64,000 bases of DNA, taken from Flavobacterium sp. CBA20B-1. GTDB taxonomy: Bacteria > Bacteroidota > Bacteroidia > Flavobacteriales > Flavobacteriaceae. The notes below the pieces were generated by a model. It saw nothing but the letters and a program-made list of their open reading frames with translations. It searched no databases and was not told where the DNA came from. Positions 43,716 through 62,332 of this stretch are shown piece by piece. The position numbers and the translations under genes are program-made. Location: the NCBI RefSeq assembly GCF_028473145.1, contig NZ_CP092370.1:2728001-2792000 (forward strand), written 5' to 3'. Position 1 is the first letter of the stretch. Each line of letters starts with the position of its first letter.

Positions 43716-43800
43716 AATTCAAGTTTTCTAGTATTTTTTAATTTTTGAAACATTCTCTATCATTACTAATAAAAAAGTAATAATTAGCAAAGTGTTTATT

Positions 43801-44906: not shown

Positions 44907-44953
44907 CAAAAGTAAAACTCCTTTTTACATTTGTCAATAAGTAATTTTACTTA
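44907..44953 (-). promoter_or_regulatory. Box-type promoter of the small lipoprotein gene
   Basis: On the minus strand the perfect palindrome TAAGTAAAATTACTTA (44953-44938) directly precedes TTG (44937-44935). Exactly 20 nt later comes TACTTTTG (44914-44907), a full -7 match. The ATG lies 22 nt further on. Three other promoters in the 44.9-61.7 kb block have the same design. Confidence 0.75.
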
Positions 44954-44976
44954 AATTTAAAACCTGGAAAATATAC

Positions 44977-46890
44977 CTACCGCTTCACCACTTTAACTGT
45001 TCCGGTGTTGCCTTCTACAGTAACAATTTTTATAAAATAGACACCATTACTGTTATTTTCCATATTTATCTGGTTACTGCTATCAAACATACTTTCTTGT
45101 ACTAGTCTTCCAGTAGCATCGTAGATTGTATAAGCAGATAACTGCTCTGTAGTTTCTACATTGATGATACTTGTTGTTGGGTTTGGATATACGTTAAACG
45201 ATAATGTATTAAAATCATCGGTACTCACCGAACCACACGCACTGTTTGCTAGCTTCGCTACAAAAAAGTCTGCTTCGCCAGTGCTGATTAATGGGTTTAT
45301 CCCCAACGTATTATTCATAAAAAGATTGGCGTTAAAACTACCTCCGGTAATATAGTTACCATCGTTATCAACTGCTACAGCCGTCATTCTCTTAGTACTT
45401 AGTGGCTCTCCTTCTATATCATGTACGCCTATCACATTTCCTGTTTGTTTATCTAAACGAACCAATATCGGGTCGGGCTGGTAGTTGGTGACTGGGCGAA
45501 CTACTTCGATAGTTCCCCAAAACTCTGCACTTGCCTGTGCTGCAAAAGCTACTTCATCATTGTTTATAGCAATGCCCTTACCATGACGTAAACCAGGTGC
45601 TAGAACACCTGTACTAAAAGCAGCGGTTGCCTGTACCCATTGCACATCACCATCACTGTTGAATTTTACAATCATTGGAACTGTATAATCAGCTCCTGTA
45701 GTAATATTATAGGGTGTAACAGATGAGTCTGTAGGGTCATAAATTTTTAAATCAAGGTAGGTAGGATGTCTGAATCTGGTTCCTCCAATATAAACGTTCG
45801 AACTTTCATCAATTATTACAGAGCTAATTTTGTTACCAGTGAGATCACTACTTGTTCCAGGGTCTGAGTAAATCTCTCTTATCCATTTTTTACTGCCATC
45901 ATTCCCATTAATAGCAATAATAAATGACCGATTCACAATAGTCTGTCCGTCATAGGTTAAGGGAAATAGAGGAGCACCTCTTCTTTCTCCAGCTATATAA
46001 TATGTATTAGTACTTTCATCATAGGTAAAACGAGAAGTTCCTGTTGGAAACCCTGTTCCGTCTGTAACAGGCAAAAGAATACTGCTTATATAATTTAAAT
46101 CGGTGTCGTATTTTGCTAAATAGTACTGACCAGCAGTCACTGTACTAGGTACGGTTATCTGATTGTCCAAATGTGTTCCGTTGAGTAATCCCACGACAAA
46201 ATGTAATATATCGTCATTAATGGCAAGGTCTAAAATTTGTGCTCCAGAATTTGTGCTTCCCACATTGCCCTGCAAGGCTTTTTTTCCTTGATAGTTACCA
46301 TCGCTGTCATATTTTACTAAATAAATTCTTTTATAGTAGTCGGGGTGATTGTTGTTCATAGGTAAAGAATCCGTAGAACTGAAACGTACTGGGAAGGTGC
46401 CTGCTGCATTAGTAACACCTGGGTTAAAATATCCTCCAATATATACATTGTTCTCGCTATCTAGCACTAAATTATATGCCAAATCTTGTGAGCCTCCGCC
46501 TATCGCCTGGCTCCAGCGCACATTGCCTTCGCAGTCAGTAGAAAATAAGAAAATATCTTCCAATCCTCCAGCCTGGCTATTGGGTTGATTGTTGGTTTGT
46601 ACGGTCACGCCATCAAGCTGTGCGTTATGGTGCTGTCCTGTTCCAAAAATAGAAGCAATAAAATAGTAATTTCCATCGCTTCCTACTTTTACATCGTGAA
46701 TGGTTTCTTTGTCGGTTCCTCCCAAACTTCCACCTCCTTTCATTGCCCACTGCCATTCATAGGGTTGTTGGGCGTTGGCTGTAAGAGATAAAAGAAGAAA
46801 GAATATGAATAAACAGGATATTTTGGGAGTTTTAAAAGGATATTCCTCACGCTGTTCAAAATAATAAGCTTTATGTATTTTTTGTTTCAT
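44977..46890 (-). CDS. T9SS-exported SBBP beta-propeller protein, paralogue 1
   Basis: I chose the ATG at 46890 to match its siblings. A long N-region and hydrophobic core ending in LTANAQ form the signal peptide. The mature part has SBBP-type propeller repeats (NLVLDSENNVYIGGYF, SSVIIDESSNVYIGG, AVAVDNDGNYITGGSF). The last ~75 residues are a type A T9SS sorting domain (FNVYPNPTTSIINVE ... GVYFIKIVT ... VKVVKR). The product should be secreted or surface-attached. N- and C-terminal parts are nearly identical to paralogues 2 and 3; the centre is mosaic. Confidence 0.85.
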   Translation of the reverse strand: MKQKIHKAYYFEQREEYPFKTPKISCLFIFFLLLSLTANAQQPYEWQWAMKGGGSLGGTDKETIHDVKVGSDGNYYFIASIFGTGQHHNAQLDGVTVQTNNQPNSQAGGLEDIFLFSTDCEGNVRWSQAIGGGSQDLAYNLVLDSENNVYIGGYFNPGVTNAAGTFPVRFSSTDSLPMNNNHPDYYKRIYLVKYDSDGNYQGKKALQGNVGSTNSGAQILDLAINDDILHFVVGLLNGTHLDNQITVPSTVTAGQYYLAKYDTDLNYISSILLPVTDGTGFPTGTSRFTYDESTNTYYIAGERRGAPLFPLTYDGQTIVNRSFIIAINGNDGSKKWIREIYSDPGTSSDLTGNKISSVIIDESSNVYIGGTRFRHPTYLDLKIYDPTDSSVTPYNITTGADYTVPMIVKFNSDGDVQWVQATAAFSTGVLAPGLRHGKGIAINNDEVAFAAQASAEFWGTIEVVRPVTNYQPDPILVRLDKQTGNVIGVHDIEGEPLSTKRMTAVAVDNDGNYITGGSFNANLFMNNTLGINPLISTGEADFFVAKLANSACGSVSTDDFNTLSFNVYPNPTTSIINVETTEQLSAYTIYDATGRLVQESMFDSSNQINMENNSNGVYFIKIVTVEGNTGTVKVVKR

Positions 46891-46943
46891 ATCTGTTAGT
46901 TTTTTCACTTCTTTAAAACATAGGAAAGCTAAAGACTATTGAG

Positions 46944-48887
46944 CTATTTCTTCACCACTTTAACCGTTCCGGCATTGCCTTCTACGGTAACAATTTTTAT
47001 AAAATAGACACCATTACTGTTGTTTTCCATATTTATCTGGTTACTGCTATCAAACATACGTTCTTGTACTAGTCTTCCTGTAGCATCGTAGATTGTATAA
47101 ACAGACAACTTCTCTGTGGTTTCTACGTTGATGATACTTGTTGTTGGGTTTGGATATACGTTAAACGATAATGTATTAAAATCATCCGTACTTACCGAAC
47201 CACATGCACTGTTTGCTAGCTTAGCTATAAAAAAGTCTGCTTCGCCAGTGCTGATTAATGGGTTTATACCCAACGTATTATTCATAAAAAGATTGGCATT
47301 AAAACTACCTCCGGTAATATAGTTACCATCGTTATCAACTGCTACAGCTGTCATTGTCTTAGTACTTAGTGGCTCTCCTTCAATTCCGTGAACTTCTAAA
47401 ACAGCACCCGACTGTTTATTGAGTAGTATTAGTGTTGGGTCAGGTTGATAGTTATTTACTGGTAAATTTATTTGAATATTCCCCCAAGTATCAGCACCAG
47501 CTTGTACCCCAAGGGCGACTTCATTGTTATTTATAGCTATTCCTTTTCCATAACGTGGACCAGGAGCAATATTTTCAATATCTGTTGTTGCCTGTACCCA
47601 TTGCACATCACCATCATTATTAAACTGTATAATCATTGGAATAGTTGAAGTAATACCAGCTGTAAAAAAATATGGGTTAACAGATGAGTCTGTAGGGTCA
47701 TAAATTTTTATGTTTGGTGAGTTATGTTGATGGAAACTTCCTCCTACGTAGACATTGGAATCGTCATCCACAGCCAATGAAAAAATACAGTTAACATTAA
47801 GCTGTCCTGAAGTAGAAGTAGAATAAATTTCTCTACGCCAATTTTCACTGCCGTCATTATCATTAATTGCTAGTATAAAAGAGCGTTCTACAAATGCATT
47901 ACCATCGTATATTAATGGTTGTACAGCACCAGTAACCCCTCCTCGCATTCCTCCAATATAATATTGGTTAGAGGTTGTATCATAGACAAATCTAATTCGT
48001 CCATTAACAAATCCTGTACCATCTGCAATAGGTAAAACAATATTATTGATATAATTTAAGCCTGTATCGTATTTTACCAAATGATATTGAAAATTATATG
48101 TCCATGTATTAGGGTCATAGGTATATTGTGAAGGAACAGTTACCTGATTGTCTAAATGTGTTCCACTTAGTAAGCCTACTATAAAATGCAAGGTATCGTT
48201 ATAAATGGCAAGGTCTAAAATTTGCGAACCATAATGTGCGCTGTTAGGATCGTTACTTACATTGCCCTGCAAGGCTTTTTTTCCTTGATAATTACCATCG
48301 CTGTCATATTTTACTAAATAAATTCTTTTATAGTAGTCGGGGTGATTGTTGTTCATAGGTAAAGAATCCGTAGAACTGAAACGTACTGGGAAGGTGCCTG
48401 CTGCATTAGTAACACCTGGGTTAAAATACCCTCCAATATATACATTGTTCTCGCTATCTAGCACTAAATTATATGCCCTATCTTGTGAGCCTCCACCTAT
48501 CGCCTGGCTCCAACGCACATTGCCTTCGCAGTCAGTAGAAAATAAGAAAATATCTTCAGCCCCTCCAGCCTGACTATTGGGTTGATTGTTGGTTTGTACG
48601 GTCACACCGTCAAGTTGTGCGTTATGGTGTTGCCCTGTTCCAAAAATAGAGGCAATAAAATAGTAATTTCCATCGCTTCCTACTTTTAAATCGTGAATGG
48701 TTTCTTTGTCGGTTCCTCCCAAACTTCCACCACCTTTCATTGCCCACTGCCATTCATAGGGTTGTTGAGCATTGGCTGTAAGAGATAAAAGAAAAAAGAA
48801 TATGAATAAACAGGATATTTTGGGAGTTTTAAAAGGATATTCCTCACGCTGTTCAAAATGATAAGATTTATGTATTTGTTGTTTCAT
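46944..48887 (-). CDS. T9SS-exported SBBP beta-propeller protein, paralogue 2
   Basis: This 647-residue protein has the same signal peptide, SBBP propeller repeats and T9SS sorting domain as its neighbours. Its first ~215 residues are almost identical to paralogue 1, while ~215-500 differ (e.g. SNDPNSAHYGSQILDLAIYN, VGGSFHQHNSPNIKIYDP). It lies 54 bp downstream... i.e. after the upstream-lying paralogue 3 stop by 45 bp, in a tandem array. Ligand or role unknown; adhesion or surface display is likely. Confidence 0.85.
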   Translation of the reverse strand: MKQQIHKSYHFEQREEYPFKTPKISCLFIFFFLLSLTANAQQPYEWQWAMKGGGSLGGTDKETIHDLKVGSDGNYYFIASIFGTGQHHNAQLDGVTVQTNNQPNSQAGGAEDIFLFSTDCEGNVRWSQAIGGGSQDRAYNLVLDSENNVYIGGYFNPGVTNAAGTFPVRFSSTDSLPMNNNHPDYYKRIYLVKYDSDGNYQGKKALQGNVSNDPNSAHYGSQILDLAIYNDTLHFIVGLLSGTHLDNQVTVPSQYTYDPNTWTYNFQYHLVKYDTGLNYINNIVLPIADGTGFVNGRIRFVYDTTSNQYYIGGMRGGVTGAVQPLIYDGNAFVERSFILAINDNDGSENWRREIYSTSTSGQLNVNCIFSLAVDDDSNVYVGGSFHQHNSPNIKIYDPTDSSVNPYFFTAGITSTIPMIIQFNNDGDVQWVQATTDIENIAPGPRYGKGIAINNNEVALGVQAGADTWGNIQINLPVNNYQPDPTLILLNKQSGAVLEVHGIEGEPLSTKTMTAVAVDNDGNYITGGSFNANLFMNNTLGINPLISTGEADFFIAKLANSACGSVSTDDFNTLSFNVYPNPTTSIINVETTEKLSVYTIYDATGRLVQERMFDSSNQINMENNSNGVYFIKIVTVEGNAGTVKVVKK

Positions 48888-48932
48888 ATCTGTTAGTTTT
48901 TTTTACTTAAATTTAAAACCTAGAAAATATAC

Positions 48933-50888
48933 CTACCGCTTCACCACTTTAACTGTTCCGGTGTTGCCTTCTACGGTAACAATTTTTATAAAATAGACAC
49001 CATTACTGTTGTTTTCCATATTTATCTGGTTACTGCCGTTAAACATACGTTCTTGTACTAGTCTTTCTGTAGCATCGTATATCGTATAAGCAGACAACTG
49101 CTCTGTAGTTTCTACATTGATGATACTTGTTGTTGGGTTTGGATATACGTTAAACGATAATGTATTAAAATCATCCGTACTCACCGAACCACATGCACTG
49201 TTTGCTAGCTTAGCTACAAAAAAGTCTGCTTCGCCAGTGCTGATTAATGGGTTTATACCCAGTGTATTATTTATAAAAAGATTGGCATTAAAACTACCTC
49301 CGGTAATATAGTTACCGTCGTTATCAACTGCTACAGCCGTCATTGTCTTAGTACTTAGTGGTTCTCCTTCTATATCATGTACACCTATCACATTTCCTGT
49401 TTGTTTGTCTAAACGAACCAATATAGGGTCGGGCTGAAAATTAGCTCCTAAAGGACGAGCTATGTTTATTGCCCCCCAAGAGTCAGCACCGCCTTGTGCT
49501 GCAAAAGCTATTTCATTCCCATTTATAGCAATATTTTTTCCTCGACGTAAGGTAGATGCGGAGATAGTTGAGTCGTGAGATGTTGTTGCCTGTACCCATT
49601 GCACATCGCCATCACTATTGAATTTTACAATCATTGGAACTGTATAATCAGCTCCTGTAGTAATATTATAGGGGGTAACAGATGAGTCTGTAGGGTCATA
49701 AATTTTTAAATCAAGGTAGGTAGGATGTCTGAATCTGGCCCCTCCAATATAAACGTTGGAATTATCATCAATTACTACAGAGCTAATTTTGTTACCAGTG
49801 AGATCACTACTTGTTCCAGGGTCTGAGTAAATCTCTCGTATCCATTTTTTACTGCCATCATTTCCATTAATAGCAATAATATATGAACGATTTACAATAG
49901 TTTGTCCATCATAAGTTAATGGCATAAGTGGTGCACCTATTCGCTCACCAGCTATATAAAATGTATTAGTACCACTATCATAACCAAAGCGAGTATCTTT
50001 CATAGACAAACCTGTACTATTTGAAATAGGTAAAGAAATACTACTATTATAGTCAAGGTTGGGATATGTGTCATAGGTTACTAAATGGTATTGGTAATTG
50101 TATAGTGTATTAAAACTTGAAGGTACAGTTACATTTCCATCCAAATGCGTACCGTTTATTAGTCCAATAATAAAATGTATTTTTCCGTCACCGTCTATTG
50201 CCAAATCGGAAATTTGTGAGGTGAAATTATTCCCTGTTACATCTCCCTGTAGAGCCTTTTTTTCTATATAATTGCCATTACTATCATATTTTACTAAATA
50301 AGTAGTTTTGAAACCCTCTTGTGGAATATTTACTCCACCATTACTAAAATCTGGAAAAGGCACAAAGTCATTATCTGAAAAATGTAATGGTGGTCTAATA
50401 CCTCCTCCTGAACCTGGATCTTCATTTCTAACATTTGCTCCTACATAAACATTGTTTTGATCGTCTAATACCAAATTATAGGCAGTATCATTTTTCCAGC
50501 CACCAATAGCCTGACTCCAACGCACATTGCCTTCACAGTCAGTGGAAAACAAAAAAATATCTTTAGTGCCACCAGCTATTGTATTAGAGGTATTGTATAC
50601 TGGTACGGTGTACCCGTCTAAATTTGCATTTGATGCTCCTGCAATTGATGTTATAAAATAATAGTTATTATCTGTACCTACTTTTATATCATAAATTCTT
50701 TCATCATCAATTCCTGCTCCTGTACCACCTAGACTTCCGCCTCCTTTCATTGCCCACTGCCATTCATAGGGTTGTTGGGCGTTGACTGTAAGAGACAAAA
50801 GAAAAAAGAATATGAATAAATGAGGTATTTTAAAAGGATATTCCTCACGCTGTTCAAAATAATAAGCTTTATGTATTTTTTGTTTCAT
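48933..50888 (-). CDS. T9SS-exported SBBP beta-propeller protein, paralogue 3
   Basis: The 651-residue protein is the first of the tandem array in transcription order. Its N-terminal third (residues ~55-215) diverges from the other two. The block from ~300 to ~420 (PLTYDGQTIVNRSYIIAING, RHPTYLDLKIYDPTDSSVTP) is almost identical to paralogue 1. Signal peptide, SBBP repeats and the T9SS domain are as in its siblings. A terminator of the PKD gene lies just upstream, so this array may depend on readthrough or its own weak promoter. Confidence 0.85.
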   Translation of the reverse strand: MKQKIHKAYYFEQREEYPFKIPHLFIFFFLLSLTVNAQQPYEWQWAMKGGGSLGGTGAGIDDERIYDIKVGTDNNYYFITSIAGASNANLDGYTVPVYNTSNTIAGGTKDIFLFSTDCEGNVRWSQAIGGWKNDTAYNLVLDDQNNVYVGANVRNEDPGSGGGIRPPLHFSDNDFVPFPDFSNGGVNIPQEGFKTTYLVKYDSNGNYIEKKALQGDVTGNNFTSQISDLAIDGDGKIHFIIGLINGTHLDGNVTVPSSFNTLYNYQYHLVTYDTYPNLDYNSSISLPISNSTGLSMKDTRFGYDSGTNTFYIAGERIGAPLMPLTYDGQTIVNRSYIIAINGNDGSKKWIREIYSDPGTSSDLTGNKISSVVIDDNSNVYIGGARFRHPTYLDLKIYDPTDSSVTPYNITTGADYTVPMIVKFNSDGDVQWVQATTSHDSTISASTLRRGKNIAINGNEIAFAAQGGADSWGAINIARPLGANFQPDPILVRLDKQTGNVIGVHDIEGEPLSTKTMTAVAVDNDGNYITGGSFNANLFINNTLGINPLISTGEADFFVAKLANSACGSVSTDDFNTLSFNVYPNPTTSIINVETTEQLSAYTIYDATERLVQERMFNGSNQINMENNSNGVYFIKIVTVEGNTGTVKVVKR

Positions 50889-50930
50889 ATCTGTTAGTTT
50901 TTTTAATTATTGGTTTCTAAAATTAATAAA

Positions 50931-50963
50931 AACGGTGCTAAAAGCCAAGCTCTTAGCACCGTT
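50931..50963 (-). terminator. Terminator after the PKD-type T9SS gene
   Basis: Arms AACGGTGCTAA (50931-50941) and TTAGCACCGTT (50953-50963) pair perfectly and are followed on the minus strand by TTTTTA. It is 16 bp after the stop at 50979. Confidence 0.75.
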
Positions 50964-50978
50964 TACTCATTAAACAGT

Positions 50979-53900
50979 TTATTTCTTAATCAATTTTTCG
51001 GTCGCAATGCGTTTACCGTCTGCTTCTAGCGTAATGATGTAGGTACCCGGTATAAAACGGCTTACGTCCAGCGTAATTTCTCCGTCTTGTCCGCTTACTC
51101 TTTCATTGTAGCGCTGTAAGCCCATAATATCATATACTTTAATGCTTTGTGCATTATCGTATTCTGTACCTGTGCTAAACGTTACCACAGTGGTATCGTA
51201 TGATGGATTGGGCGAGAGTGCCAAAGATGCTGGTTCTACCAGATTTTCCCAATGGGTTTCAGATAGTTTAACCTCTACAACGTCGGCACAACCTGGCCCG
51301 CTGACCACAAACATATCAGGCACACCCGGCATATAGGTGCCGTTGACGTAGAATTCTACTGCAAAAGAGTTGAATCCCGGATTCAATACCAACACTGATG
51401 GTACAAATGTGCCGTAGCCGTTATAACTACTCAGGTGTACCGCGATAGGGTTGCTTGTAGGGTTTGTCATTTGAACGTAGTACACAAAGCCCCCCGGTAT
51501 GATTTCCATCAATTCAAATTGTACTTTGAAATCGCAAGATTTCGGCGGACATCTTTCAAGGTCTATAGTAATATCTGGTATGTTACTGCCATAGGTGCAA
51601 CCTTGTTGGCTGATAAACAACTGATAAGTTCCTCCGGAAGTAACTGGTTGATTCGGGATAAAGGTGTTGTTGCCCGATTGGGTAACACTGCCGTTTACCT
51701 CCCAGCTGTAACTGTCGTAGGTACCCAGTGGCCCAATCAAATAAGCATCACAAACCGTATAACAACCCGCAGGAACTACCCATAAGGCACGTTCTGGATT
51801 GTGCGGTGCCTGTATATATCCGGTGGCACTGCAACCGGTAGTTTCGGTATAGGTTACACTATACGCTCCGCCATGGGTTACTTCGATGGTAGTTCCGGTC
51901 ATGCCGTTGCTCCAGTTATACACACCAGTACTTGGCCCGGTAGCCGTTAATTGTATGGTATACGGGTCGCAGTTAATTACCGTGTAACTGATGGTTGGCG
52001 TAGGCACTTGCGGGTGTACTTCTACCGTAGTGGTAAAGCTGTTGGTACAAGACGGATCGCTTGCAGCACGGGTTTCAAACGTGTAGTTATATGTACCCGG
52101 AGTCAGTCCGGTCAACTCCAACACTTTGTTGGTATCACCAGCTACCCATGTTCCGTAGCCCGAAGGTAGTGACGGCCCGCTCCATCGGTGCTCCACCGCA
52201 TTATCGGTAGTAATACCTACCAATATGGTGCTCTCGTCAAAACACACACTAGTATTGCCGCTGATGCTGGCAAACGGAGGCTGACGCAGTATATAGCTTT
52301 TAGCTTCGGTAGCCATGATATAACTTTTACAACCATTAGCATCAATCAACACCGGCCAATAACTGCCGCTTTGTGTTGGCTGATAAGTCAAACCTGTACC
52401 AACTTCTTGATTACCCAACATCCATATAATATCAACCGGCATAAGGCTACCAGAAAATGATAGTGGTGTAGGATTATTGGCACAGAAGTCAGCATTAAGA
52501 GGGTTAATAATACCTCCATTAAAATCAGCTTCATAAATGTTTACAAATACAGGATTGCTGGTATAAGTACACCCATACGGTGTGGTAACCGTTAATGTAA
52601 TGAATTGGTTTGGTCCTGCGGGGAGCTGAATCAATGTATTTTCTTCACTGGTTATATACGATGTACCATTAAATACCCACTCATAGATGTTGCTTGGGTC
52701 ATACCCCGGTGCGGTTAAAGTAATCACCTCGTCAGAACAATAGCTTAGAGGCGAAAGCGTAAAGTTAGGGTCCGGTTCAGGGTCTAAGGTTATCGTTAGC
52801 GTAGTTTCACACTCTGGTGTTCCACTGCCTGGTGAATTGACTTTCATGGTATAAACATACGTGCCCGGTCCTATACTGTTTATGGTTGTGCTGTTGCCTG
52901 AGGCTCCTGCCGTAACACCCGGACCAAAATATTCAAAGGTCAACGGATTAATACTGCCTGCATTATATGTTAATGAATGATTGTACAGCACTATTTTATA
53001 AGTTCCGTCTCCGTTACAGGTTATCTCTGGCGACATTTTGGCTTCGTAGTTTTTCTCTACCGTATAAGTCTTCACAATAGTACAACCGCTATAATTCAGG
53101 TATGCTGTTACTACGTGTGTGCCTGGTACCGTTGTGGTAAAAGTGGCATTGTCTGTTGTCTGTCCACCTGCAGGAGAAAGATGTGTACTGCCTGTCCAAA
53201 CAATTGATGTTGGCGGGTAGTCGTAGTTTAAGTCGGTAATAATAGTGTTACAACTTGTCCACTGTGCCGATGCACTCGCATTCGGGTTTGGTGATACTAT
53301 ACAGCCACCTGGTCCACCGCCGGCACAACTTTCCGTTACATAAATATTGTCTGAGCGTACTTCACAACCGTTTTGGTCAATTACTTTTACGTAATAAGTT
53401 CCGCCTGGATTTGGTCCGGTAATGGAGAAATTTTCACTATTAGCCCCTGCTATCGGAGTAGTACTTGGAACTTTATACCATTCAAATACAGTAGAAGATG
53501 TGATGCCTGTAGATACCGTTGATGTTAAGCTTATAGATCCGTAAGTCGCAGGGCAAACTATATAGCTGTAGCTTGGCGATACATACACTTCTGTTTCCGG
53601 ATATACAATTACATTTTGTGATGCCGATACGCTGTAGTTACATACGCCCAGCTGTAAGGTAAGATTTCTGGAAATATTACTGCTGGAACTGTTGGCAAAA
53701 GTGTTATTAATATTCAAAGTTCCCCCACCTGAATAAGAATATGTACCTTCATCAACACCGTCTATAAGCACCTTAATTGATACCGGATAAGGCGGACTAG
53801 GGGTTATCGTTATAGGCACAGCAACGGTTCCTGTATCTGCCGGACAAATATTAGCTACCGTTCCAATAGTCAATGTAGGGTTTTCTATCAGGTTGATAAC

Positions 53901-55856
53901 GTATGTTTGGGTAAAGGTCTGTCCACATTTAATGACATCTACTTGTAAAATTCCGGTTGGTGAAGTACTGATTTCATTAAAACCTACGGTTGCTGTTGTG
54001 CTGTTAATACCGTCAGTGATACTTCCGAAATTGGTTGCACTTGTACTGCTTTTGATACTCCATGTAATGTGATCGGCAACTACGCCGCCCAAATCTACCG
54101 TAAAAGTAGCGCTGCTACTCGGACAAAATTGTGCCAGTCCGCTGTTATTGATAATAACCGGATTAATAACAATTTCGCTTACAGCAAATTCAACTGGATC
54201 TGATTCACATATCACTCCGTTTTTCACAGCTTGTTTTACCACGCTTACCGTTGCAGGTGAACCTGTAAACTGTACATCTGCCTGTGCGCCAGTATTGTCT
54301 CCAATTACTGCTCCGTTGGTAACGCTCCATACGTAAATAAAACCAGGTTCTTCTTCACTAAGCGTGTATGTATAAGGTGTGTTTAAACATACCTTTTCTG
54401 GTCCGTCAATAGTACCGGTCATCACTGGTAATTCTACAACTTCTACCATTACAGGGTCAGAGTCACATCCGTCATAACCCACGGTAATTACGTGTGTTCC
54501 CGAATCAGGGAAATCGTAATCCATTGTAGAACCAGTATGGGTATAAACTATATTTCCGTCCAGCATAATTTGCCATTCTACCGATACGCCGTTATGCGTT
54601 TGGAAACTCATAGTATTATTCTGACAATTGGTAAGGTCATCGTCAGTAATGATCTGAGGACGCTCTGCAACTGAAAATTTAATTTCAGCTTTACCCATAC
54701 ACTTACCATCATCAATCAACGTATTTGTGTATTGTACAGACAAAACATAAGCGCCGGGAGTGGCTCCGTCTACCACAATCTCGTTGCGTTGGTCAGTGTG
54801 TACCAGCATCGGGTGGTTAGGGTCTCCATCAATCATCCATTCAAATTCTGTAGCAGGCCACTGAGGCAGGGTAAAACGCCCCTGAGAATCTTGGCAAACT
54901 ACACCTGGTCCTTTGATTAGTCCTCTACGTAAAACAACAGGTATTTTTACCGTAGTCCAAATCGGACAAGAACAGTTTGAACGATAGCTCACATAGCCAA
55001 AACCTTCTTGCGGATCAACGTTGTCCCAAACTACTTCGATTGAAGTACCGTTGTTGGCTATCATTGTTCCTCCAATTACTTTCCATTCACCGCCGCAACC
55101 ATCAGTTACGCTGTATGTTTCGCGAGCATTTTCACAAACCACAGACGGACAAGTGATTTCAAACTCACGGGCGTCCATAACATTTACTTCCCACTTATAA
55201 TAAGAGGTACAGTTACAACTGTTGGTAACAGCAAGTTCCACAGTATAAGTGCCCGGATGATCGTACGCGTGAGTTGGTTCGAAAAGGCTGGACGTAGTGC
55301 CGTCGCCGAAATCCCAAAGGTAATTAACAATGGCAGAACCGCCGTTGTCGTTAGAAAGGTTGTTAAAAGAAATGGGTAGAAAGGTACAAAACTCCTTTTG
55401 ATGGGGTTCTGGTCCGTCTATTTCAAAATAGGCTTCTGGACTAATTACTTTTTCTACACAAACCGTTAATACATCAACGGTATTGTCGTCATAAGTTATG
55501 GTCAGTGTTAAACTTCCGTTTCCACCACTGTTCCAGTGTATTGTAGCTCCGGTATTACTGCTGCTTTGTAAGTTACCTCCGTTAACCTGCCACTGAACGT
55601 CTGTAACACCATTGGCTGTAAAGCCATAAGTTACTGTACTTTCTTCACAAACACGAAGACAAACACCCATTGAAATTTGTTCAATCAGCGTATAGTAGTC
55701 TTTTTCGCCTCTGTCGTCGTAGTCAATACACCCTACTTCCTGATCCCATGTCAGAACGGGGTTGTGTGCTGTTTGGGCCTTCATTCCTAAAGACCACAGG
55801 ACAATCAGCATGATGCCCAATGCCCGTATGACGGGCAGACTGGTAATTTTTGCCAT
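50979..55856 (-). CDS. Very large PKD/Ig-like surface protein with T9SS sorting domain
   Basis: The 1,625-residue protein has a signal peptide (cleavage after GMKAQ). It then carries a series of PKD/Ig-like modules, clearest at ~180-225 (YLWDFGDGTTSSLFEPTHAY, PGTYTVELAVTNSC), with many Cys-containing strands. The C-terminal ~80 residues are a type A T9SS domain (LALSPNPSYDTTVVTF ... FIPGTYIITLEADGKRI). It is probably an adhesin or matrix protein displayed at the surface. By eye its base composition is less AT-rich than neighbouring genes. A box-type promoter sits ~250 bp upstream. Confidence 0.88.
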   Translation of the reverse strand: MAKITSLPVIRALGIMLIVLWSLGMKAQTAHNPVLTWDQEVGCIDYDDRGEKDYYTLIEQISMGVCLRVCEESTVTYGFTANGVTDVQWQVNGGNLQSSSNTGATIHWNSGGNGSLTLTITYDDNTVDVLTVCVEKVISPEAYFEIDGPEPHQKEFCTFLPISFNNLSNDNGGSAIVNYLWDFGDGTTSSLFEPTHAYDHPGTYTVELAVTNSCNCTSYYKWEVNVMDAREFEITCPSVVCENARETYSVTDGCGGEWKVIGGTMIANNGTSIEVVWDNVDPQEGFGYVSYRSNCSCPIWTTVKIPVVLRRGLIKGPGVVCQDSQGRFTLPQWPATEFEWMIDGDPNHPMLVHTDQRNEIVVDGATPGAYVLSVQYTNTLIDDGKCMGKAEIKFSVAERPQIITDDDLTNCQNNTMSFQTHNGVSVEWQIMLDGNIVYTHTGSTMDYDFPDSGTHVITVGYDGCDSDPVMVEVVELPVMTGTIDGPEKVCLNTPYTYTLSEEEPGFIYVWSVTNGAVIGDNTGAQADVQFTGSPATVSVVKQAVKNGVICESDPVEFAVSEIVINPVIINNSGLAQFCPSSSATFTVDLGGVVADHITWSIKSSTSATNFGSITDGINSTTATVGFNEISTSPTGILQVDVIKCGQTFTQTYVINLIENPTLTIGTVANICPADTGTVAVPITITPSPPYPVSIKVLIDGVDEGTYSYSGGGTLNINNTFANSSSSNISRNLTLQLGVCNYSVSASQNVIVYPETEVYVSPSYSYIVCPATYGSISLTSTVSTGITSSTVFEWYKVPSTTPIAGANSENFSITGPNPGGTYYVKVIDQNGCEVRSDNIYVTESCAGGGPGGCIVSPNPNASASAQWTSCNTIITDLNYDYPPTSIVWTGSTHLSPAGGQTTDNATFTTTVPGTHVVTAYLNYSGCTIVKTYTVEKNYEAKMSPEITCNGDGTYKIVLYNHSLTYNAGSINPLTFEYFGPGVTAGASGNSTTINSIGPGTYVYTMKVNSPGSGTPECETTLTITLDPEPDPNFTLSPLSYCSDEVITLTAPGYDPSNIYEWVFNGTSYITSEENTLIQLPAGPNQFITLTVTTPYGCTYTSNPVFVNIYEADFNGGIINPLNADFCANNPTPLSFSGSLMPVDIIWMLGNQEVGTGLTYQPTQSGSYWPVLIDANGCKSYIMATEAKSYILRQPPFASISGNTSVCFDESTILVGITTDNAVEHRWSGPSLPSGYGTWVAGDTNKVLELTGLTPGTYNYTFETRAASDPSCTNSFTTTVEVHPQVPTPTISYTVINCDPYTIQLTATGPSTGVYNWSNGMTGTTIEVTHGGAYSVTYTETTGCSATGYIQAPHNPERALWVVPAGCYTVCDAYLIGPLGTYDSYSWEVNGSVTQSGNNTFIPNQPVTSGGTYQLFISQQGCTYGSNIPDITIDLERCPPKSCDFKVQFELMEIIPGGFVYYVQMTNPTSNPIAVHLSSYNGYGTFVPSVLVLNPGFNSFAVEFYVNGTYMPGVPDMFVVSGPGCADVVEVKLSETHWENLVEPASLALSPNPSYDTTVVTFSTGTEYDNAQSIKVYDIMGLQRYNERVSGQDGEITLDVSRFIPGTYIITLEADGKRIATEKLIKK

Positions 55857-56101
55857 TGTAGTTAATGTTTTGGTTAGTATTCATTTTTTAAAACTTGATG
55901 ATTATTTAAAGGTTAATACTCAGTTACTGATATTGCGGTACTCACTCAGGAGCACATAATTTATTTTTGTTTAATAGGGTAATTACAAAAATTATAAAAT
56001 ATAAGTTTTTCGACTTCACTCACTATTGCGCATTCTTCCATGATAAAGATTTGTAAGTGTTATTACATTTGTAATTAAATTTTTAACAGATGAAAGATTC
56101 T

Positions 56102-56148
56102 GCAATTTAGATGACTTAAATAAGCCAGTCAATAAGTGTTTTTACGTA
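56102..56148 (-). promoter_or_regulatory. Box-type promoter upstream of the PKD gene
   Basis: On the minus strand the box TACGTAAAAACACTTA (56148-56133) abuts TTG (56132-56130), and 20 nt later comes TAAATTGC (56109-56102), an imperfect -7. A 50-bp stretch (56104-56153) is identical to 58889-58938 upstream of another gene. The leader to the PKD ATG would be ~240 nt. I see no convincing gene in it. Confidence 0.6.
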
Positions 56149-56211
56149 TTTTTACTATCAAAATAGTTAGAGTTTTCTTAAAAAATAGAACTGTAAATCT
56201 TTTCTGACAAA

Positions 56212-56251
56212 AAAAACAGAGTTTGACTACAAATAGTCAAACTCTGTTTTT
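56212..56251 (-). terminator. Terminator after the 56294-56827 lipoprotein gene
   Basis: A perfect 18-bp inverted repeat (56212-56229 and 56234-56251) with a 4-nt loop is followed by a U-tract on the minus strand, 40 bp after the stop. Confidence 0.8.
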
Positions 56252-56293
56252 GATAGTTTCTGGTTAAAAATGGAAAAACATTTTTATTACAAT

Positions 56294-56827
56294 TTATTCT
56301 ACATCGGAACAAATTTTAACACCTCCTACCATACCACTATGATGCATGGTTATAGTTTCTCCAGAAGAAAAGTTATCACTTAAATTAGTAAGAGTATTTT
56401 CAACACAACTCTGACTGTAACAGGTATTAACTAGCGACTGACCATCAGGGCATTTCCATTTTGCGAATTCCCATTCAATATCACTAATAGGTCCTCCAGC
56501 CTTTGGAGCATAATAATTAAAATTATGAAACTTAACTCCTCCTTGTTCTCTTGATACATCATAAATAACAGCTTCTATGTCACCATTGCTTTCATCAATA
56601 ATCTTTTCTACCGCTTCATAATTTTCTATAATCACTCTTTGAAGTTTATGTACACTATCTTGTTCAACCGGAGCAAAATAATCTCCAAAAAAGTTTAATT
56701 TAGTGGAAAATCCACTAATAGCTTCGTCACTAAGAATTGATTCTTCTGTAACTTTGCTTCCCTGATCACTCTCACACGAGTAAAATACAAAGCCAATGGC
56801 TAAAAATAAAATCAGAAATTTTTTCAT
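56294..56827 (-). CDS. Lipoprotein of unknown function
   Basis: The 177-residue protein has a lipoprotein signal with lipobox FYSC-E (Cys 18). The mature part is acidic. Four Cys in the last 60 residues (KCPDG, NTCYSQSCVEN, KICSDVE) could form disulfides. No family recognized. Confidence 0.6.
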   Translation of the reverse strand: MKKFLILFLAIGFVFYSCESDQGSKVTEESILSDEAISGFSTKLNFFGDYFAPVEQDSVHKLQRVIIENYEAVEKIIDESNGDIEAVIYDVSREQGGVKFHNFNYYAPKAGGPISDIEWEFAKWKCPDGQSLVNTCYSQSCVENTLTNLSDNFSSGETITMHHSGMVGGVKICSDVE

Positions 56828-56906
56828 AAAATAAATATTTAAAGTTAACCGTTTTAAAAATGATAAATTACATTTATTTGTCTTAATAAGTTTATGAGTT
56901 AAAACT

Positions 56907-57371
56907 TTATTCTACTTTAATAAACTTTTGCGTTAATTCTAATTCAACATAACGTCCTTGTTCATCCATCCCATTTTCAGAAACTGCTAAATGAAGATTA
57001 GTTTCATTTAAATTAGAAATGGTAAAACTATAGGGTATCCCGTCTCTATTAATTGTTAATTCATCTTCTGTTTTTTGGTATGTTCCACTACCTACCTCCT
57101 CATCTTCGCCGGTATCGCTATCAAAAAAGCGATACTCTATTACTCCATCTTCTTTAAAATGGTATTGTACTCCACCATCTGGAATATCTTCTTCTTCATA
57201 AACCATTTCTCCATCAATAGACATCTTAATGTCAAATGCGTTGAAATCCCATTTCCCTAATAAGTATTCCTTTGGTTCATCATCTATGACCGGACTGCTA
57301 TCATCATTGGAACAAGATGATAAAAAAATTAAACTAAATGCTATTGTAAAAATGTAAAAAAATCTATTCAT
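56907..57371 (-). CDS. Lipocalin-like lipoprotein
   Basis: A 154-residue protein with lipobox LSSC-S (Cys 20). The acidic beta-rich part starts LLGKWDFNAF, the G-x-W start typical of lipocalin-like Bacteroidota lipoproteins, and continues with YHFKEDGVIEYRF and GTYQKTEDELTI. Ligand unknown. Confidence 0.65.
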   Translation of the reverse strand: MNRFFYIFTIAFSLIFLSSCSNDDSSPVIDDEPKEYLLGKWDFNAFDIKMSIDGEMVYEEEDIPDGGVQYHFKEDGVIEYRFFDSDTGEDEEVGSGTYQKTEDELTINRDGIPYSFTISNLNETNLHLAVSENGMDEQGRYVELELTQKFIKVE

Positions 57372-57387
57372 TATTTCTATTGCTTTT

Positions 57388-58071
57388 TTAGTGTATTGAT
57401 AATGCTAACCCCATAAAGAATCCATTTGCCGATGTTTTGGGACTATCATCATAAGAGTTTCCGTTAATTTCCCATTTTTCTTTTCCAAAGCCTATTCTAT
57501 ATCCCATTCTAACCCCAATTAAAATATCTCCTTCAGAATCAATTTCCCAATCGTAACCTGCTTTTAGAGCCGCATATGTATTATTTCTTGAACTTATTTT
57601 AGAACCATCATTTGTTTGTGAGATAGAATCAAAAAAAGAAGTGCCTTTTACATTGTTATATAAATCTACATCATACGATACGTTTCCGATAGCTACACCA
57701 AACAACAAGTAGTTTCGTTCTTTAAAATTGATATATTTACCATAACCTATTTCACTAAAAATAACCTGCTGTTCTAATGTATATTCTTTTTCATTATTCT
57801 TAGAATTGTTTAAACCTACAGTCACTTCCCAATAATCACGATTCCCAGAGAATAGTTTTATATTGAAAGATGGTGTAAATTGCAAGCCGTCTTTAATTTG
57901 TGGTAGCCCTTGATTTTCTAATACATCATTTATACTTCCAAAATTAAAATTTGACATTCCTATTATTGCTGATGCTTGCAAACCTTTCTTTTCATTAATA
58001 TTTTGTGCAGTAGCATAACTACTTATACATATAACTACCAGCATCGTTAGTTTATTCCAAAATCTTCTCAT
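57388..58071 (-). CDS. Outer-membrane beta-barrel protein
   Basis: A signal peptide (ends SSYATAQ) precedes ~200 residues of alternating strands with aromatic girdles (GLQFTPSFNIKLF, DYWEVTVGLNN, YLLFGVAIGNVSYD, YAALKAGYDWEID, ILIGVRMGYRIGFG). The C-terminal strand ends FFMGLALSIH. This is a small ~8-stranded OMP barrel pattern. Confidence 0.7.
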   Translation of the reverse strand: MRRFWNKLTMLVVICISSYATAQNINEKKGLQASAIIGMSNFNFGSINDVLENQGLPQIKDGLQFTPSFNIKLFSGNRDYWEVTVGLNNSKNNEKEYTLEQQVIFSEIGYGKYINFKERNYLLFGVAIGNVSYDVDLYNNVKGTSFFDSISQTNDGSKISSRNNTYAALKAGYDWEIDSEGDILIGVRMGYRIGFGKEKWEINGNSYDDSPKTSANGFFMGLALSIH

Positions 58072-58142
58072 TGTTTATTTTTTATAATTAAGTTTTGGTA
58101 CATTTATTATGATGTGCCAAAACTTAAAGATTCATCACAATC

Positions 58143-58721
58143 TTACTTTCCAAAATAATAATCATATATTTGGACAGCTAATTCAGCAGCAGAACTTCCA
58201 AGAGCACCTGTAGCTGCTCCACCTAAAGCAGTCCCACCTCCACCAAATAATCCTTTAAAAAATCCTCCGACTGCTCCTTTTACATCTGCTCTTCCTACTT
58301 TACGCCAATTAATATCGGGCCAATCAATTTTAGAAGCCTGTTGATAATTTACTTGCGACCAATAACTATTGGAATCTACAACTTGTTGATTCCAATAATG
58401 TAAACTTGATTTTCCAACAGCTAAGCCTGCCAATAGAGGCATTTGTTCTTCTTCAGTAAGATCAGAATTGATAACTTTTTGAACCTCACTATTTATTTTA
58501 GTATTTATTTCGTCTATATGATTAAAGGGGGGCTCATAACCATCAAAAACCGCCTCTACCTGTTTTGCATATTCAATTTGCCGTTCTGTAAAATCAGATG
58601 GATAAGAATCTGAAAGAACATTATTATAAGCTAAAGTTCCTGCGGTTACTAAATTGTCAAAAGTAGCTCCAGGAAAAGAACTGCTGTTATTTACAAAAGT
58701 TGCTGACAAGTTAATTATCAC
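58143..58721 (-). CDS. Protein with hydrophobic Gly-rich C-terminus
   Basis: The open frame gives 192 residues from a GTG at 58721, but coding-like text continues 5' in the same frame (NLSSFDRVPSEPE), so the true start is upstream and lost by a frameshift (see 58765-58830). There is no signal peptide. The C-terminus has a hydrophobic Gly/Ala-rich stretch (GGFFKGLFGGGG, then TALGGAATGALGSSAAEL), like membrane-inserting or bacteriocin-type tails. It is served by the best box-type promoter. Function unknown. Confidence 0.55.
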   Translation of the reverse strand: MIINLSATFVNNSSSFPGATFDNLVTAGTLAYNNVLSDSYPSDFTERQIEYAKQVEAVFDGYEPPFNHIDEINTKINSEVQKVINSDLTEEEQMPLLAGLAVGKSSLHYWNQQVVDSNSYWSQVNYQQASKIDWPDINWRKVGRADVKGAVGGFFKGLFGGGGTALGGAATGALGSSAAELAVQIYDYYFGK

Positions 58722-58764
58722 TTCTGGTTCTGATGGTACTCTGTCAAAACTTGATAAATTTAAT

Positions 58765-58830
58765 CTATAAATCTAATCCGTTGTTATGCAAATTTTCTAT
58801 GTATGCATAATAGATTAATGCATCTGCCAT
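58765..58830 (-). pseudogene. Separated N-terminal piece of the 58143-58721 gene
   Basis: The ATG at 58830 opens MADALIYYAYIENLHNNGLDL followed by TAG. Reading one base later at the TTA-TAG-A joint continues RLNLSSFDRVPSEPE and on into the 58143-58721 frame. A +1 shift would thus fuse both into a ~227-residue protein. This may be a mutation, a sequence error or, less likely, programmed +1 frameshifting. Confidence 0.5.
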
Positions 58831-58886
58831 AATTTTTAATCTTTTAAATTAACAATAAATATCATCGTAGCTACAAAATGATAGTC

Positions 58887-58933
58887 CAAATTTAGATGAC
58901 TTAAATAAGCCAGTCAATAAGTGTTTTTACGTA
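58887..58933 (-). promoter_or_regulatory. Box-type promoter of the Gly-rich-tail gene
   Basis: Minus strand: box TACGTAAAAACACTTA (58933-58918), TTG (58917-58915), 20 nt, then TAAATTTG (58894-58887), a perfect -7. The ATG at 58830 is 57 nt downstream of the -7 element. Confidence 0.75.
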
Positions 58934-59235
58934 TTTTTTGGGTGTTTTTCGATAATATCGAGGTATTTAAAATCAAAAATGATGTAGATACTTTTATACT
59001 TTTATCATTTGATAGAATTATAAAAGCCGATTTATTAATTAAATTGGGGAGTTGCTTTGGAGAAAATATTCAGAAGAGTAAATAAATTATATCAGATAAA
59101 ATCTGTATTGTGAGGTAAAAAAACTAATTAATAAAGATGAAAAAATAATTAAAAATCATAAAAAGCGTATTTTTAAATTATCTTTCATAATTTTCTTTAG
59201 GTATATATAAAGACACAAATAAGATAAGTAATTTG
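58934..59235. other. Intergenic after the NarL-type regulator
   Basis: AT-rich 300-bp spacer. A short minus-strand frame from about 59182 (MKDNLKIRFL, then TGA, then hydrophobic residues) is too weak to call. No clear terminator seen. Confidence 0.35.
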
Positions 59236-59928
59236 TCAATAAGTGTTTTTACGTATTTTGGATAGTATATCTTCTGTCTTTATTATTTTGTGGTGATAGC
59301 AGTAGGCAACTACCGTAATCATGGAATCAAAATCACTTTTTCCTAAGATGTTTTGTTTGTGCACCTCAACTGTACGACTACTGATATTTAAGACATCTGC
59401 TATTTCTTTTGCTTTCAGGCCTTGTGCAAAATGCTCAATAATATTAAGTTCTGATTCGGTAAAATTAGGCTGTCTTGATTCTGGTAATACAAAAGTTGAG
59501 TTGGATTTGATTTTCTTTATTTGTGAATAAAGGCTTTTTTCGGAATAAAAACCTTCTTCTTTTAAACCTATAATTGCTTTCTTTAATTCTTTTGGTGATG
59601 TATTTTTAGTAAATACACCATGAAGATCCATTTCTATAACCTTAGATATCATGCTAATATCATCCATTAGTGTTAGTATGAGTATTTTTACATCACGATA
59701 TTTCCTCTTTATTATTTTTGCGGCTTCAAAACCATCCATTATGGGCATTTGTATATCTAATAATAGAATATCAATTTGAGTGTGTTCTAATTTTTCTAAT
59801 AAATCTTTTCCGTTTGATGCTTCAAGCACAACATAAAGTTCTTCAGAAGTATTAATCCATAATGCTAAATTTTCTCTAAACAAAGTATGGTCATCAGCTA
59901 TTGCTATTTTTAGTATATTTTCTGTCAT
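59236..59928 (-). CDS. NarL/LuxR-type response regulator
   Basis: The 230-residue protein has a receiver domain (D12-D13 acidic pair, phospho-acceptor in ILLLDIQMPIMDGF, Thr in ILTLMDD, Lys in FTKNTSPKEL). A LuxR/GerE HTH follows (TESELNIIEHFAQGLKAKE, IADVLNISSRTVEVHKQNI). It overlaps the kinase gene by 4 bp. It is the best candidate for binding the 16-bp boxes in this region, including the one ahead of its own operon at 61688-61703 (inference). Confidence 0.88.
   Translation of the reverse strand: MTENILKIAIADDHTLFRENLALWINTSEELYVVLEASNGKDLLEKLEHTQIDILLLDIQMPIMDGFEAAKIIKRKYRDVKILILTLMDDISMISKVIEMDLHGVFTKNTSPKELKKAIIGLKEEGFYSEKSLYSQIKKIKSNSTFVLPESRQPNFTESELNIIEHFAQGLKAKEIADVLNISSRTVEVHKQNILGKSDFDSMITVVAYCYHHKIIKTEDILSKIRKNTY
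59240..59255 (-). promoter_or_regulatory. Orphan copy of the regulator box
   Basis: The same 16-mer TACGTAAAAACACTTA and following TTGAC lie at the very end of the regulator gene and form its last codons. No good -7 element occurs 20 nt downstream, so this copy may be decayed or act differently. Confidence 0.45.
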
Positions 59929-60695
59929 TTATTTTTAATTTTTAAAGTAATTCTAAATTTATTTCCTTGATTTACCGGAAACTGTACAAGTTTGCCGTCG
60001 ATATTTGATAATCTGGAAATAATATTTTTTATTCCCATTCCTTTTGAATTTTTTGATGATTTGTAAAAATCAAAGGATGTTCCATTATCAGAAGTGTCGA
60101 AAAAAACGGAGTCATCTTCCATCGAAATCGAAAAAGAGATTTTATTGGCATTACCATGTTTTATCATGTTTGTAGTCAACTCTTGAATTGTTCGAAACAG
60201 TTCGTGTGAAAGAGCTGTTGGGAGATCTAATTCTTTAGTGTGGTATTCTTGTGTAATTTCTATTGCGTATATTTGAATTATGCGCGCAAAATAGCTTTGC
60301 AATGTTAATATAAGTCCATAGTCTTGTAGCATTGGAGGCATTAAGTTATAGCTTATATTTTGCACATGATTCAATGTTTTAGATAGCATACTACTAATCT
60401 TGTCTAACTCTTCTTTTGTAATCGAACCCTTGTCTTGTTCTGCCAGACGGCTTACATGGTACTGCAATGCATTTAAGTCGCCACTTACCTCATCGTGCAG
60501 ATCTGCTGCAATACGCCTTCGCTCCATTCTTTCGGCTTCAAAAGTGGCGCTCATTAGGTTTTTTGATTCTTTTTGTTTCATTCTATAAGTTCTTCTGTTG
60601 TAAAGTACAACTACAAGTAAAACTGTAATGACACTAAACAACATAATAGCAGTCGCAATCCAGAAAAAAATCTTCAAGCTGGTTTCATTTTCCAT
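59925..60695 (-). CDS. Sensor histidine kinase (HisKA_3/NarX type)
   Basis: The 256-residue protein has one N-terminal membrane helix (~9-31), a short linker, the HisKA_3 motif RRRIAADLHDEVSGDLNALQ with the phospho-His, and the ATP domain (ELTTNMIKHGNANKI, FDTSDNGTSFD, KGMGIKNIISRL). It has no periplasmic sensor domain of its own. It overlaps the multi-pass membrane-protein gene by 22 bp, so that protein may supply the sensor. Partner of the downstream NarL-type regulator. Confidence 0.87.
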   Translation of the reverse strand: MENETSLKIFFWIATAIMLFSVITVLLVVVLYNRRTYRMKQKESKNLMSATFEAERMERRRIAADLHDEVSGDLNALQYHVSRLAEQDKGSITKEELDKISSMLSKTLNHVQNISYNLMPPMLQDYGLILTLQSYFARIIQIYAIEITQEYHTKELDLPTALSHELFRTIQELTTNMIKHGNANKISFSISMEDDSVFFDTSDNGTSFDFYKSSKNSKGMGIKNIISRLSNIDGKLVQFPVNQGNKFRITLKIKNK

Positions 60696-61309
60696 ACCCC
60701 GATAGTTACAAGTATTCGCAAAATAAGTGTTGCCATTATATTGACAATGGCGAAATCATAAAAATATAAGTTACTGTCAAAAATAAAGCTACTCATCAAA
60801 AACAAAGGCATCGTAACTAAATAGTAGATATAAAAAGCTGACACAAAATAAAAAGTAGGATTTTGCCAGAGGTTTTGTATTTCATCGCTCCTAAACAAAT
60901 CTCTTACACACCAGAAAGTCCCCAATAAAACAAGGAATGTCAAAGGTGTTTTATTAATAGCTTTGGCTATAAAGGAAGAGTATTCTTGCCAATAGTAAAA
61001 TGAAAAACCATAAGTGACTGTTAATAAGATAAAAACAAAAAGGAAAGCCGTTTTAAATCGAGGTTTGAACAGTTTAAAATAAAAATAAAAAATAGCCAAA
61101 AATTCTAAAAAGGAATATATTTGAAACCAATAATCCACATTTATTTTTAAAATAATTGAACCTATTGACTCATATAAAGTAGCTATAGCCGTAACCCAAA
61201 CAAAAGGAATAATAGGTTCATTGAAAATAAAGGCCCTTTTTTTGGAAAACAACACTAACAAAGGGAGTATTCCTACAAAAAGAGCCGTATATAAAAAGAT
61301 ATAATACAA
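60674..61309 (-). CDS. Multi-pass membrane protein (about seven TM), possible sensor
   Basis: The 211-residue protein has about seven hydrophobic helices (near 3-21, 33-52, 62-80, 88-105, 118-136, 150-172, 183-205) and almost no soluble part. No transporter motif is seen. It starts 2 bp after the 105-residue gene and overlaps the kinase gene by 22 bp, implying tight co-expression. A split receptor (7TM plus single-TM kinase) is a reasonable but unproven model. Confidence 0.65.
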   Translation of the reverse strand: MYYIFLYTALFVGILPLLVLFSKKRAFIFNEPIIPFVWVTAIATLYESIGSIILKINVDYWFQIYSFLEFLAIFYFYFKLFKPRFKTAFLFVFILLTVTYGFSFYYWQEYSSFIAKAINKTPLTFLVLLGTFWCVRDLFRSDEIQNLWQNPTFYFVSAFYIYYLVTMPLFLMSSFIFDSNLYFYDFAIVNIMATLILRILVTIGVWKMKPA

Positions 61310-61311
61310 AG

Positions 61312-61629
61312 TTATGGTTTTATTAAAGCACTGTTTTTAGGGCAATAATTAGGACAAGTTACTAAATCTTCTAAAATTACGCCTGAAGTTATATCTTCAC
61401 CGTTTTGATTTACACCTACCAATACAAGATTATTCTTCCCTGTTACTGAATCTACCCCGTTATAAAAACGAATACCTATACAATCATCTTGCCCGAAGAT
61501 ACGATTAATTTTATTAATCCCTGCAAAGAAAGACTTAATTGCATTTGGGTTGTTATCCTGAAAAGTGTGTGTGTAATTAATCGCTTGGTCTAATGTAATA
61601 ACCTCTCCGGTATTGTTGTCAATAGTCAT
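61312..61629 (-). CDS. 105-residue protein of unknown function heading the signalling operon
   Basis: This short acidic protein (MTIDNNTGEVITLDQAINYT) has no signal peptide. It ends in a Cys/Pro motif CPNYCPKNSALIKP. It resembles small conserved flavobacterial proteins I cannot name. A box-type promoter lies 28 nt upstream. As the first gene of an operon with a membrane protein, a kinase and a regulator, it may be a modulator or signal of the pathway (inference). Confidence 0.65.
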   Translation of the reverse strand: MTIDNNTGEVITLDQAINYTHTFQDNNPNAIKSFFAGINKINRIFGQDDCIGIRFYNGVDSVTGKNNLVLVGVNQNGEDITSGVILEDLVTCPNYCPKNSALIKP

Positions 61630-61656
61630 AATTAAAATTTTTAATAGTTAAACAAG

Positions 61657-61703
61657 CAAAGTTCTCCGATAAAAACACAAAAGTCAATAAGTAATTTTAC
61701 TTA
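61657..61703 (-). promoter_or_regulatory. Box-type promoter of the signalling operon
   Basis: Minus strand: perfect palindrome TAAGTAAAATTACTTA (61703-61688), TTG (61687-61685), 20 nt, then GAACTTTG (61664-61657), one mismatch from the -7 consensus. The ATG at 61629 is 27 nt further. The box is identical to that at 44938-44953. Confidence 0.75.
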
Positions 61704-61928: not shown

Positions 61929-62213
61929 TTAACTCTTTTCATCACTACCATCCATCAGTTTTCGAATGTCTTCGTAACGGTAATACATCAATCCACCCAC
62001 TTTGGTATAGGGTAGTGTTCCATTTAATCTCAGGCTTTGGAGTGTGCCTGCCGAAATCCCCAATAATTTTCTGACTTCAAAGCTTTTTAACCATTCCTTT
62101 TGAACTTGATCTATTTTTTTGAAATGGAAACGGTTTCTTCTGATTTCTTCAAAAAGTTCTTTTTTAAAACTTTCCAAATCTTCCTTTGTAATTAGCTCTA
62201 CCTTCATTTGCAT
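61929..62213 (-). CDS. Excisionase-type helix-turn-helix protein
   Basis: The 94-residue protein (ATG 62213; 62207 also possible) has an N-terminal helix rich in Glu/Lys. A MerR/excisionase-like HTH_17 domain follows: SFEVRKLLGISAGTLQSLRL, then NGTLPYTKVGGLMYYRYEDI. Such proteins accompany integrases of Bacteroidota elements and can direct excision or regulate transfer. It lies ~120 bp downstream of the integrase gene on the same strand. Confidence 0.75.
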   Translation of the reverse strand: MQMKVELITKEDLESFKKELFEEIRRNRFHFKKIDQVQKEWLKSFEVRKLLGISAGTLQSLRLNGTLPYTKVGGLMYYRYEDIRKLMDGSDEKS

Positions 62214-62332
62214 TAATTTTAAATTATTAAAATATACTGATACAAATGAAGCCAAAATAAATATATCTATAATGAAACTGGCACTCAGAAGTATTATTTG
62301 GCTTTCAAAGGTAGTTTATTGAAAATTTATTT

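Follow-up and report, generated by a model that had tools for sequence, protein, structure and literature searches.

The window, the whole 64,000-nucleotide stretch of Flavobacterium sp. CBA20B-1 DNA analysed here, carries on its minus strand four genes that look like one operon, judged by their overlap and common strand. They encode a 105-aa protein with a C-terminal CPxxC motif (61312-61629), the 211-aa protein TM211, by eye a polytopic membrane protein (60674-61309), a HisKA_3 histidine kinase (59925-60695) and a NarL-type response regulator (59236-59928). The kinase has one N-terminal membrane segment by eye and its H67 in DLHDE; no domain besides HisKA_3 and no sensor domain was found in it. 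The regulator consists of a receiver and a GerE domain (Pfam Response_reg 3e-25, GerE 7e-12), its predicted phospho-acceptor is D58 in LLLDIQMP, and its recognition helix, SSRTVEVHKQNI, contains Glu188. The 105-aa protein had no Pfam or NCBIfam match, nor did TM211 at E 0.01, and a model of the 105-aa protein gave no informative match. The 105-aa family occurs in 22 of 296 genomes of the order (E 1e-6), and one of its 32 protein matches is named Elizabethkingia anophelis.

Next to the operon, also on the minus strand, lie genes for an HTH_17 protein (61929-62255) and a tyrosine recombinase (62333-63571), with a repeat of a tRNA-Pro 3' end beside them at 63864. Since these three features adjoin the operon, the region looks like an integrated island, whose left end was not found. 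Homologues of the HTH_17 protein and the recombinase, 90-91% identical, lie beside the module in two related genomes, G107 (recombinase residues 189-412 only) and G284. At L006:3865-4640, the tRNA-Pro 3' end is present in three copies about 350 bp apart, and the near-identical spacers between them seem to encode a short frame, which we take to be GIY-YIG-like. Three of 24 scanned loci (L157, L107, L219) also hold tRNA-Val genes, a tRNA-Arg gene or a tmRNA gene, the locus with the tmRNA gene holding a recombinase as well, in parallel to the tRNA-Pro repeat of the window.

Boxes, promoters and putative target genes

The sequence-only reading had placed 16-bp boxes at four minus-strand promoters, and all four were recovered, each abutting TTGAC and each with a -7-like octamer that starts exactly 20 nt past the TTG. 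Box 1 (61688-61703, TAAGTAAAATTACTTA) is followed by TTGAC at 61683-61687 and the octamer GAACTTTG at 61657-61664, and the gene of the 105-aa protein starts 58 nt past its TTG. Box 3 (58918-58933, octamer TAAATTTG at 58887-58894) and box 4 (56133-56148, octamer TAAATTGC at 56102-56109) both read TACGTAAAAACACTTA, and box 5 (44938-44953, octamer TACTTTTG at 44907-44914) again reads TAAGTAAAATTACTTA. Scored against the six fixed bases of TAnnTTTG, TACTTTTG and TAAATTTG match at 6, GAACTTTG at 5 and TAAATTGC at 4. The promoters of boxes 3 and 4 count as one line of evidence, because they lie in an identical 50-bp repeat (56104-56153 and 58889-58938). The description of TAAGTAATTTTACTTA as a perfect palindrome holds for its 7-bp arms, which form a 7-2-7 inverted repeat, and fails for the central TT, which is not self-complementary.

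Box and TTGAC together, as the 21-mer GTCAATAAGTNNTTTTACNTA, matched the window at five sites, all exactly, while shuffled controls, allowed up to 3 mismatches, gave a mean of 0.16 matches and did not reach five in any of 100 shuffles. Across the 3.04-Mb genome, with 2 mismatches allowed, the same five sites were the only ones, in a single orientation and all within one 17-kb stretch, and the reversed control had 1 match. Boxes are thus confined to the window, and the random scatter of boxes without the spacing that would have spoken against a regulon was not seen in this genome. The fifth site, box 2 (59240-59255, with TTGAC 59235-59255), was absent from the earlier description and overlaps the stop codon of the regulator gene. 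It has no -7 match 20 nt past its TTG and no ATG-started frame of at least 35 aa within 450 nt, and is probably a relic. It lies where the regulator gene reaches its 3' end, and it supplies the last codons of that gene; boxes in L205 and L212 are placed similarly.

The genes past the boxes are the putative targets, all on the minus strand. Downstream of box 3 lies the gene of a protein with a Gly-rich tail (58143-58721), named as a target by the sequence-only reading; its frame is shifted near the start compared with homologues, which start further upstream. It is followed by genes for a 227-aa protein with a signal-like N terminus by eye and no Pfam match (57388-58071), which in G138 (L219) is paired with a Gly-tail homologue, a lipocalin-like protein (56907-57371) and a 177-aa protein without a Pfam match (56294-56827), both lipoproteins by eye. 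Box 4 precedes the gene of a 1625-aa PKD protein with a T9SS sorting tail (50979-55856), which starts 276 nt past the TTG. Three tandem paralogues follow (44977-46908, 46944-48887 and 48933-50888), up to 98% identical in blocks; the T9SS tail was found in the third and is assigned to the other two by similarity. In G150 (L256), two related paralogues follow a giant PKD gene. A box-TTG with TAAATTGC also precedes giant-gene homologues in G107, G284 and G194. Since this octamer, as read from its sequence, fits the SM5 motif TAnnTTGY and is kept in these genomes, a second control may act at the giant gene promoter.

The gene of the small lipoprotein that had been proposed as the target of box 5 is broken over two frames and represents a remnant; both this and the Gly-tail target look frameshifted. 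The first frame of at least 90 aa past box 5 encodes a TIR protein (43801-44493, PADLOC ThsB1 match), 444 nt from the TTG. On the minus strand at 39241-44493 PADLOC reports a row of defence genes (ThsB1-like TIR, PDC-M37A, PDC-M37B and PDC-S06), and given the distance of the TIR gene start from box 5 this putative row may belong to the regulon. Further defence-like PADLOC matches lie at 2122-11087, namely a weak PDC-M43B (2122-4356), a DrmMII/MTase_II-type methylase (4353-5573), PDC-M62A (8551-10539) and a short PDC-M62B match (10542-11087). In relatives, many first genes past boxes look by eye like genes for lipoproteins or secreted proteins, others encode a cytosine methylase, an FRG-domain protein or an AAA_15 ATPase.

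Box and regulator across the genus

The box-TTG pattern TAMGTRWNNWYACKTATTG, which included the TTG and left the -7 element free, had 106 matches in 38 of 299 genomes of the genus, compared to 6 for the reversed pattern. The regulon is local in the genome studied here; G254 and G084 differ, with 12 boxes apiece dispersed over the genome. Sixty-nine distinct sites were readable with their flanks, and 62 promoters remained once similar downstream sequences had been collapsed. At 41 of these 62, five or six of the six TAnnTTTG bases stand exactly 20 nt past the TTG, and 6 further ones have the -7 match one base off. Control TTGs of the same loci reached a -7 match in 1.4% of 24449 cases, or 2.0% of the 2675 AT-rich ones. 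The box therefore adjoins the -35/-33 element at a fixed distance from the -7/-10 element, which is, at the level of sequence, the arrangement of class II activation.

Boxes are also found close to homologous regulators. At E 1e-30, 114 of the 299 genomes match the regulator; counting only the best 53 matches, a regulator is found within 10 kb of 36 of the 106 boxes, compared to about 0.1 expected for an assumed mean genome of 3.8 Mb, and 20 of the 38 box-bearing genomes show such proximity, 18 do not. Among 18 loci picked by regulator similarity alone, 11 had a box-TTG by a loose pattern and 7 had none, with 18 matches in total against 4 for the reversed pattern. With TTG-free patterns, which often score one box once per strand, a TTG followed 15 of 60 oriented sites in these 18 loci (background 2.4%), and boxes without a following TTG had a -7 element at the spacing in 5 of 140 oriented sites. 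In 27 of 34 aligned loci, window included, the regulator comes together with the genes for the 105-aa protein, TM211 and the kinase; 15 of the 34 had been chosen partly with the help of known boxes.

The boxes are built as 7-2-7 repeats and their length tracks residue 188 of the recognition helix. This residue is Glu in 27, Asp in 3 and Asn in 4 (L156-L159) of the 34 aligned regulators. The four Asn188 loci have, instead of 16-bp boxes, 15-bp ones of the form TAGGTA..TACCTA, in one case TGGGTA, ahead of TTG; among the other 30 loci none has a 15-bp box and 23 have 16-bp boxes. Two forecasts were made from boxes and the first third of the genes alone: Asn188 was predicted, and then found, for G450, a member of another family with a TAGGTAAATTACCTA box, and Glu and His-Arg were predicted and found for G480 with its TACGTATAAATACGTA box. 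Over 29 loci with boxes, Asn occurs with 15 bp in 5 and with 16 bp in none, any other residue with 15 bp in none and with 16 bp in 24 (Fisher p 8e-6, relatedness ignored). Class labels were assigned by hand, that of L218 from one of its two boxes. The table covers loci with a TTG-adjacent box beside a regulator; it leaves aside 7 of the 34 aligned loci without such a box (L160, L165-L169, L171), two G284 boxes in L155, a locus without regulator, the regulator matches without such a box in L251, L253 and L255, and the match in L257, a 29% relative that has a different residue 188 and lies 4-10 kb from two 16-bp boxes.

Loci other than those with Asn188 can also have a G at box position 3 (TAGGTGTTTATACGTA in L207, TAGGTAAAAATACGCA in L219), so that length is the better marker. 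Residue 191 shows a weaker link: TAMGTAAAA boxes accompany 6 of 7 Lys191 rows, compared to 1 of 17 Arg191 rows, and the fit of this residue to the box interior (22/24) is poorer than that of residue 188 to length. In G284, two TAGGTA-type 15-bp boxes lie about 10 kb from a Glu188-type regulator, the sole E 1e-30 match of this genome; they could be left over from an older specificity or reflect relaxed binding. The TAGGT pattern alone showed no enrichment over the genus (15 matches, 14 in the control). In a receiver-domain tree the clade of the window stands among Asn-type rows with modest support (88/92 and 82/79) and the Asn rows are drawn apart; a single origin of Asn188 could still hold.

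Another NarL-type regulator of the cell might bind the boxes and leave the adjacent one a bystander. The genome does contain a second module (L159) with a 45% identical regulator at C1:2049388, and in some genomes boxes occur with no listed regulator nearby. However, the second regulator carries Asn188 and, as this residue predicts, its module owns a 15-bp box, TAGGTATTTTACCTA-TTG, located after the regulator at C1:2049297 and the only match of the 15-bp pattern in the genome. Moreover, box length follows the adjacent regulator in all 29 tabulated loci, which makes a foreign regulator improbable. We regard it as more improbable still that the boxes are integron-like or att-like recombination sites of the nearby tyrosine recombinase that bound movable cassettes. 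They do form an array of direct repeats in one orientation with the recombinase alongside, the identical 50-bp repeat flanks one operon, and the gene content between regulator and giant gene varies among the window, G107 and G284. But recombination sites give no reason for the covariation with the regulator, the box-TTG-N20-(-7) geometry is fixed in many genomes, and relatives of this recombinase, the only ones searched for, occur in just 4 of the searched loci besides the window (L152, L154, L219, L249). The least credible reading is that segmental duplication left the repeats behind and that they play no part in regulation: two promoters have the same 50 bp in common and the T9SS paralogues are duplicated in tandem, yet the other promoters diverge outside the box and keep box, TTG and -7 spacing, also in distant genomes.

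Proposed control and related systems

A class II-type regulon run by the 59236-59928 regulator, as put forward by the sequence-only reading, is thus supported by the conserved spacing, the proximity of boxes to homologous regulators, the coupling of residue 188 to box length and the two forecasts. The boxes are very probably operators of this regulator, which would activate its own operon and the neighbouring operons for secreted and surface proteins. We infer binding, activation, phosphorylation and signal input as follows. Phosphorylated regulator dimers would bind the 7-2-7 inverted repeat that abuts TTG on its upstream side and, once bound, would activate RNA polymerase at the promoters of their own operon (105-aa protein, TM211, kinase and regulator) and of the adjacent operons. 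The box 1 promoter, kept ahead of the same gene in G107 and G284, implies autoregulation of the operon. Since no sensor domain was found in the kinase, its signal input probably comes from TM211 and perhaps from the 105-aa protein.

In the available part of the Flavobacterium psychrophilum account, the -7 octamer spans -12 to -5 (PMC9723704), which would put the box centre near -43.5. NarL favours inverted heptamers 2 bp apart (7-2-7), and the NarL-activated napF and yeaR promoters have such sites at -40 to -49 and -38 to -47, as far as the excerpted account goes (PMC4549865). Because the predicted box centre resembles these sites, the arrangement would be that of a NarL-type activator adjoining polymerase. 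With E. coli NarL at napF and yeaR the system shares, within the same partial account, a NarL-type regulator, a 16-bp 7-2-7 repeat with TA at both ends and a site just upstream of that of polymerase. Unlike E. coli NarL, it has a Bacteroidota-type -7 element, other half-sites and local surface-protein targets, and no nitrate-type sensor domain was found. Box 4 with TAAATTGC also resembles the SM5 promoters of F. psychrophilum, which rest on mapped start sites, whereas the octamer of the window was assigned by sequence; the accessible part of the SM5 account makes no mention of such a box (PMC9723704).

In combining a membrane protein with a NarL-type regulator and a HisKA_3 kinase that has little sensor domain, the operon shows what we take to be a likeness to LiaFSR and VraTSR. 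These are cell-envelope three-component systems. As in LiaFSR, a HisKA_3 kinase and a NarL-type regulator would share one operon, the operon of the window being deduced from overlap and strand. The LiaS model matches the kinase at 5.6e-23 with 81.7 bits, under its cut-off of 450, and among solved structures VraR matches the regulator best by sequence. In contrast to LiaFSR, no LiaF homologue was recognised, TM211 being without a family match at E 0.01, and in contrast to both systems there are an additional conserved 105-aa protein and different targets. PorX/PorY-SigP likewise represents two-component control touching T9SS; according to the portion of the literature available, it concerns genes of the secretion machinery, whereas the system described here concerns genes of T9SS cargo proteins. 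PorX is not known to be of NarL type.

Our best reading of the locus is a NarL-type regulon that is local, autoregulated and carried on a genomic island. This kind of control is textbook; as far as we have seen, the module, the box types and their coupled change are undescribed, and the accessible parts of the open-access literature yielded no such box, module, regulon or Bacteroidota NarL-type operator of this kind. More tentatively, at somewhat less than even chance, the operon might be a mobile self-contained unit on islands, in which helix and boxes would have switched together from 15-bp TAGGTA to 16-bp TAAGTA/TACGTA types, two copies in one genome would read different boxes without cross-talk, and cargo operons would arrive as box-promoter units via recombination at the repeated promoters.

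Since the box is readable beside its own regulator in many genomes, the regulon prediction is directly testable. The same applies to the origin of a new specificity after transfer, as box length can be predicted from a single helix residue and one genome contains both versions. The system also offers an entry point for studying how large T9SS surface proteins of unknown role are controlled.
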